Shown here: piece by piece, positions 22,872 to 43,352 of the stretch
Numbering within the stretch: position 1 is the stretch's first letter
How the letters are laid out: every line of letters starts with the position of its first letter
Assembly: GCA_026988975.1 (NCBI GenBank)
Contig: JALSKH010000129.1
Span: 1-51,149, forward strand
Reading direction: 5' to 3'
Source of the DNA: Campylobacteraceae bacterium
GTDB lineage: Bacteria; Campylobacterota; Campylobacteria; Campylobacterales; Sulfurospirillaceae
DNA length: 51,149 nucleotides
Position numbers and translations under genes: made by a program
The notes under the pieces: generated by a model
Database searches by the model: none
What the model was told of the DNA's origin: nothing
The model's input: only the letters and a program-made list of their open reading frames with translations

Positions 22872-23140
22872 TATTGCCATTTTAGACCAAACTAGTGTAT
22901 AACAGCGATTAAAAAAGAGTGCAATTGCGAGGCACAAGTTTGCAGGAGCTACTAGTAGCTTCAAAAACTTGTAACGACTCAAGTGTACTTTTTTTAATCG
23001 TCCGAAGGATAAGTCAAAATCAAGCAACCTGTAAAGCATCTAGCTTTCAACTTAACTAGTTAGGTTATCAAGCTATCTACTTCACATCTTACTCGATTTT
23101 GACTTACTGTTATGCACTAGTTTGGTCTAAAATGGCAATA
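22872..23140 (+). ncRNA. Large structured element, copy L1 (34-bp outer stem enclosing two hairpin domains)
   Basis: The outer arms 22872-22905 and 23107-23140 pair over 34 bp with a single G-U wobble. Inside are domain 1 (stem 22906-22916 with 22990-23000; inner stem 22934-22941 with 22965-22972) and domain 2 (stem 23011-23021 with 23095-23105, 11 bp perfect). Unpaired motifs TGCGAG, AGGA-CTAC-GTAG-TTCAA, TAACG and the junction CGTCCGAAGG recur in the same order in copy L2 (43080-43352), while the stems differ in sequence. The element separates infA from rpmJ. There is no protein in it. It may be a cis-acting leader RNA, a free RNA released by RNase III, or a mobile element; I do not recognise the family. 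Confidence 0.75.
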
Positions 23141-43079: not shown

Positions 43080-43352
43080 TAAGTACCTAGCCAAGAGACA
43101 CACCAACTAATAGCAAAAAGAGAACGGTGCGAGTACAAGGCAGATTTTAGTAGGACTACCCGTAGGTAATTCAAGAAAATCTAACGCAGTAATCGTGCCG
43201 TTATCTTTTCGCCCGTAGGGAAGCTCAAAAAGAGCACATCTGACTTCGTTAAAAACTTTTGATGTACAATAAGTACACCTACAAGTTTTTGCCTTGCATA
43301 TGCACTCTTTTTGAACTTCTATTAGTTGGTGTTTCTCTTGGCTAGGTACTTA
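43080..43352 (+). ncRNA. Large structured element, copy L2 (34-bp outer stem enclosing two hairpin domains)
   Basis: Arms 43080-43113 and 43319-43352 pair over 34 bp with one mismatch. Domain 1 (stem 43116-43132 with 43193-43209; inner stem 43142-43148 with 43176-43182) and domain 2 (stem about 43221-43234 with 43305-43318; inner stem AAAAACTT/AAGTTTTT) lie inside. TGCGAG (43128), AGGA-CTAC-GTAG-TTCAA (43152-43174), TAACG (43182) and the junction CGCCCGTAGG (43210-43219) match copy L1 in order, though stems differ. Flanking 43059-43067 and 43361-43369 form a further 9-bp stem that covers the AAGG ribosome site of DUF507. No protein is encoded; family unknown to me. Confidence 0.75.

Follow-up and report, generated by a model that had tools for sequence, protein, structure and literature searches.

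A mobile, multi-copy family of structured repeats built on a conserved hairpin unit in Campylobacterota and other bacteria

The analysed window, a stretch of 51,149 nucleotides from a Campylobacteraceae bacterium (Sulfurospirillaceae in the GTDB taxonomy; contig JALSKH010000129.1), contains two related elements, designated L1 and L2, to neither of which a strand is assigned. L1 (positions 22872–23140; 269 bp, end type TATTGCCATTTTAGACC) sits within a ribosomal protein operon, in the gap that separates infA from rpmJ; Pfam identified IF-1 and rpS11 as its neighbours. L2 (43080–43352; about 270 bp, end type TAAGTACCTAACC) is flanked by a LysE-type gene on one side and by a DUF507-carA pair on the other. 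Both are bounded by inverted arms, located at 22872–22915 and 23097–23140 in L1 and at 43080–43159 and 43273–43352 in L2. The RNA fold calculated for L1 has an energy of −118.8 kcal/mol versus a mean of −57.4 kcal/mol for shuffled sequences (z = −14.7), and that of L2 has −115.8 versus −57.6 kcal/mol (z = −14.1); in neither case was the native value reached in 200 shuffles. The original prediction, made from the letters of this DNA, had placed two structured elements of one family at these positions, and the folding scores, together with matches of a common covariance model in both, bear this out. A separate 14-bp inverted repeat followed by a T-rich tract is found just upstream of L1 (22827–22862) and may be the terminator of infA.

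Reading of both strands revealed that the elements consist of an outer stem enclosing two head-to-head copies of one hairpin unit of about 87 nt, for which a single-unit covariance model, R1, was built. In L1, the left outer arm (22872–22910, no strand; an inverted repeat with 23097–23140) is followed by unit 1 on the plus strand (22911–22996; R1 match of 70.8 bits, E = 4e-16), a plus-strand linker GTCCGAAGGAT joining the two units (22997–23009) with homologues in other copies, a degenerate unit 2 on the minus strand (23010–23106), and the right outer arm (23107–23140, no strand), identified as an inverted repeat. Unit 2 of L1 was not detected by R1 at E ≤ 1 and was assigned on the basis of the inverted repeat, its position and the fold. 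In L2, assigned by its fold score, its sister copies with shared ends and its absence from congeners, outer arms at 43080–43118 and 43314–43352 (inverted repeats, no strand) enclose unit 1 on the plus strand (43119–43206; 90.8 bits, E = 1.5e-21), a plus-strand linker containing CCCGTAGGG (43207–43225, assigned by sequence), and unit 2, which is unit 1 on the opposite, minus strand (43226–43313; 90.7 bits, E = 1.6e-21). Both units of L2 and unit 1 of L1 are the only R1 matches anywhere in the window. The short pattern TTCAA...TAACG alone is not significant there (three occurrences versus 1.05 expected), whereas the R1 model is.

Two domains are thus present in both copies, as had been predicted, but the second is the same motif on the other strand. 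Among the single-stranded motifs thought to be shared, AGGA, TTCAA and TAACG are homologous, while TGCGAG had been misaligned, since in L1 it aligns with TACAAG of L2 and not with the TGCGAG that L2 also contains. The inter-domain CGYCCGWAGG does occur, but as one form of the near-palindromic CCCGNAGGG linker of two-unit elements. In most copies, the two units are arranged head to head about 20 nt apart, and therefore most copies from Proteobacteria and Campylobacterota carry one unit on each DNA strand.

Alignment of ten units yielded the conserved block CRAGGCA-N7-YGYAGG-hairpin-TTCAA-N7-TAACG, which takes the form CRAGGCA-8bp-GYAGG-stem-TTCAA-8bp-TAACG in L1 and L2. An outer stem of 14–17 bp with G-T wobbles leads to a loop CAAGG-CA/TAACG-CAG, a stem of exactly 8 bp, a loop GYAGG/TTCAA, and a short capped stem. 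The loops are more conserved than the stems and are the most conserved part of the unit across phyla. The expectation of conserved loops enclosed by covarying stems was confirmed by two-sided changes in 23 of 28 pairs, with 96.4% of cells paired, a result obtained in none of 500 shuffles and abolished when the partner strand was slid. Further homologues with compensatory changes, on which the original prediction had depended, were retrieved by covariance-model search of the source genome and its relatives. For 66 units from the GTDB collection, mostly from outside the phylum but with some Campylobacterota included, 90.2% of cells were paired and the score was 0.82 versus 0.19 for shuffled sequences; the alignment had been fitted to the model, and these pair counts lean towards it.

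The stems of the unit are strongly asymmetric between strands. In stems P1 and P2, G-T is far commoner than A-C on the motif strand, at 158 to 8 for all distinct units and at 72 to 4 and 86 to 20 over non-redundant units. The excess falls mainly on three or four neighbouring pairs in the outer stem of the unit, where a wobble occurs in 31 of 38 and 29 of 35 units. The outer arms of the elements lack this asymmetry, which fits terminal repeats that are read as a duplex, and do not favour the transcribed strand either (20 to 16). Taken with the covariation and the stronger conservation of loops than of stems, the asymmetry shows that the unit is under selection as a folded single strand on the motif strand; RNA and single-stranded DNA both fit. 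One could instead regard the elements as plain palindromic MITEs with a functionless unit, in which structure is conserved merely through templated correction of near-palindromes. Such correction would generate paired stem changes, and the unbiased outer arms agree with it; however, it should erase mismatched loops, which are the very parts retained across phyla, and it does not account for the preponderance of G-T over A-C on one strand of the unit. We consider this explanation highly improbable.

The elements had not been recognised as a known class, and comparison with Rfam 15 at gathering and permissive thresholds revealed no credible match over them, the sub-threshold hits being nearly all plant or animal microRNA hairpins. 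Searches of the open-access literature by sequence and by topic yielded no description, although subscription papers could still hold one.

A pattern derived from the shared loops revealed many further copies in the source genome, falling into several subfamilies with different stems. R1 detected 54 matches at E ≤ 0.01 and 63 at E ≤ 1 in this 2.26 Mb genome, the latter at about 48 places by our count; the genome has about 45 copies of the element. Among a set of relatives, 29 of 60 genomes were R1-positive, while a complete congeneric genome (G009) contained no match; in a phylum-wide sample, matches were found in 61 of 397 genomes, representing 24 of 68 genera. The loop-only DNA pattern was found in at least 115 stretches of the GTDB collection, against roughly three expected by our own estimate from the length of the pattern. 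Oscillospiraceae, Faecalibacterium, Flintibacter, Shewanella, Marinomonas, Legionellaceae, Methylophaga, Sulfitobacter and Fibrobacter were among the matches listed, and R1 confirmed many of these stretches with E values of 1e-9 to 1e-17. Outside the phylum, Clostridia, Gamma- and Alphaproteobacteria and Fibrobacter have the unit, carried by elements whose ends differ. Folding of distant copies showed an unchanged architecture; those of Clostridia contain one unit, and most of the Proteobacteria examined have two. No unit matches were found in viral contigs, and no Shewanella copy was found on plasmids.

Two candidate vehicles were considered and rejected. Spaced unit pairs in L296 and L282 could suggest an autonomous element with the unit inside, but they look like independent copies flanking other genes. 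An element of about 1 kb in an Oscillospiraceae genome (L345, 1503–2500) is not a driver of the family; here the apex of a hairpin unit has received an insertion, an IS200-like Y1 transposase gene.

The idea that the elements might be mobile, one of several offered initially, is supported by the many copies in this genome and by empty orthologous sites. The infA-rpmJ gap is free of L1 in four congeners, L2 is missing from congeners, and empty orthologous sites were also found for several other copies. In their size of 264–272 bp, lack of coding capacity, multiple copies and empty sites, the elements agree with MITEs. The original prediction had argued that shared terminal repeats should be seen in a classical MITE, which found no support: the outer arms fall into discrete types, L1 and L2 belong to different ones, and copies within one type have common ends, as shown by the sister copies of L2 (L004, L009, L018, L027, L029 and L067). 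In one of them, the copy at 1414–1680 of L018, the element cuts into the beginning of a reading frame that resembles a c-type cytochrome. Outer stems of the L2 type (L004, L009, L029 and L026) contain a stretch of about 12 bp that varies far more than the sequence on either side but remains paired in every copy.

Of about ten end types in the family, three agree with the ends of IS5-type insertion sequences; the types of L1 and L2 are not among them. The ends GGGCACCTCTAAAAACCC delimit full insertion sequences of IS5 type in both L189 and L191 (PF05598 and PF01609; NCBIfam IS5); the ends TAGACTTCTTGCATAACCC bound a broken transposase remnant in the source genome (L208), are found in similar form in L216, and match those of elements L054 and L056; and the end TGAGACCACTGCACAGTAA adjoins an IS5-like transposase in L211. 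Direct 4-bp duplications flank copies of the GGGCACC (GGGCACCTCTAAAAACCC) type, namely TTTA/TTTA in L163 and L169 and ATAA/ATAA in L171, and TTAA/TTAA flanks the insertion sequence in L189. For the L1 and L2 end types, searches for a full insertion sequence with such ends and for a clean target duplication found neither. On the strength of the three matching end types, the elements are best read as MITEs. As in the IS5 family (NCBIfam transpos_IS5_4), terminal repeats are shared for these three types and AT-rich 4-bp duplications for one, but the insertion sequences encode a transposase and have no hairpin unit. The non-coding ends of the autonomous elements were searched and contained no R1-like unit, which means that the insertion sequence itself can do without the unit. 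Nor is it strictly required for persistence, given that the same arms occur in modular forms of about 270 bp with two units, about 163 bp with one, and about 56 bp as a bare stalk; in L374 (1501–1560) and L394 (1501–1556), the outer arms are joined and the units are missing.

Altogether, these elements constitute a real, mobile, multi-copy family with strong covariation, cross-phylum spread and IS5-type ends in three arm types.

The position of the copies relative to host genes bears on whether the unit acts in cis on host transcripts, as the initially suggested cis-acting leader would. Within host mRNAs, the unit could work in cis as an RNA signal, for instance for RNase III or for antitermination, and so make insertions into operons harmless. 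Twenty of 31 classified insertions are located between co-directional genes, several within 0–6 nt of both neighbours, L1 itself is located in a ribosomal protein operon, and the wobble pairs point to RNA; moreover, NEMIS and ERIC elements act as cis-acting RNA signals in host mRNAs (PMC2229807). However, with genes taken as the longest open frames rather than curated, the one-unit copies of Clostridia are oriented 9 sense and 10 antisense, and this lack of a sense-strand bias argues against a simple cis-acting leader. Likewise, where two-unit copies flanked by co-directional genes are asymmetric, the better unit is sense in three cases and antisense in four, and the outer arms lack a sense-strand wobble bias. 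A cis function on the host transcript is therefore not favoured, and we regard it as unlikely. Three species of a different genus (L052, L053 and L055, about 1501–1587) each have a single unit at an apparently shared gene junction; it has no recognisable mobile-element arms and is possibly kept for a host function.

The strand asymmetry would equally fit single-stranded DNA, and the inverted hairpin pairs resemble the layout of REPINs, so that the element could be recognised, like a REPIN or an attC site, by a Y1/RAYT or integron-type recombinase. Mobilisation by Y1/RAYT was rejected, as copy number does not track Y1 genes: the element-rich genomes G004, G005, G021, G042, G045 and G052 have no Y1 transposase genes. 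The REPIN/RAYT system is comparable in its two inverted hairpin-bearing halves forming a near-palindrome; the present elements differ in their length of about 270 bp, another motif, IS5-type ends and no link to Y1 transposase genes. In attC sites, paired R boxes RYYYAAC and GTTRRRY are located at the foot of the hairpin. An attC identity was rejected as well, because the unit carries ATCTAAC (GTTAGAT on the complement) on one strand while the partner reads GGCAGAT, leaving no R-box pair. Since, in addition, the ends match those of IS5 elements of the DDE type and direct 4-bp duplications flank some copies, recognition by such a recombinase appears quite improbable.

On balance, it seems probable that L1 and L2 are MITE-like non-autonomous elements mobilised in trans by IS5-type transposases, with a unit selected as a folded strand that serves propagation. 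The outer stem would represent terminal inverted repeats moved by IS5-type DDE transposases; for L1 and L2 this is presumed from matching ends that were found on other end types only. Within the arms, the one or two conserved units may bind a widely conserved factor, as RNA or as single-stranded DNA, and the positioned wobbles make RNA slightly preferable. The persistence of the unit within different ends, whatever the direction of host transcription, suggests that its role would lie in the propagation of the element itself. As the stems drift, selection or templated correction of one arm from the other could keep them complementary.

Bacterial MITEs are usually viewed as genus-level debris of single insertion sequences. 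That one loop-conserved, strand-specific unit recurs, from Campylobacterota to Clostridia, within elements whose ends differ suggests a reader other than the transposase. A hairpin of 87 nt with a fixed 8-bp geometry offers a sharp molecular target for finding this reader, and the unit would be a missing entry for RNA family libraries. One could hypothesise, as a bolder and rather doubtful proposal, that one ancient hairpin unit, folded as RNA or single-stranded DNA, spread across bacterial phyla by repeatedly acquiring various IS5-type ends, and that it binds a universally conserved cellular factor that aids movement or survival of the element. If so, a transposon-borne structured nucleic acid would behave as an independent module.

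The elements resemble Correia/NEMIS, ERIC and RUP (PMC2229807) in being small, non-coding and multi-copy, with terminal inverted repeats and long stem-loops often near or overlapping stop codons. Each of the MITEs covered by that review is found only in a single genus or in a few related taxa, and measures about 100–200 bp. Unlike Correia/NEMIS, ERIC and RUP, the loop-conserved unit described here spans phyla and several end types and occurs in one- and two-unit forms. Repeat structures of Borrelia plasmids (PMC2674063) likewise have compensatory stem changes, but they are short single stem-loops in a single genus, for which no insertion-sequence ends were shown. Another repeat, TTTCGTGAGGCTCAGACCAACGGGAGGATTTGTCCTCTAAGAAATAGC, about 70 bp long, is located at 2045–2118 of the window and has many copies in contigs of the source genome and in congeners.
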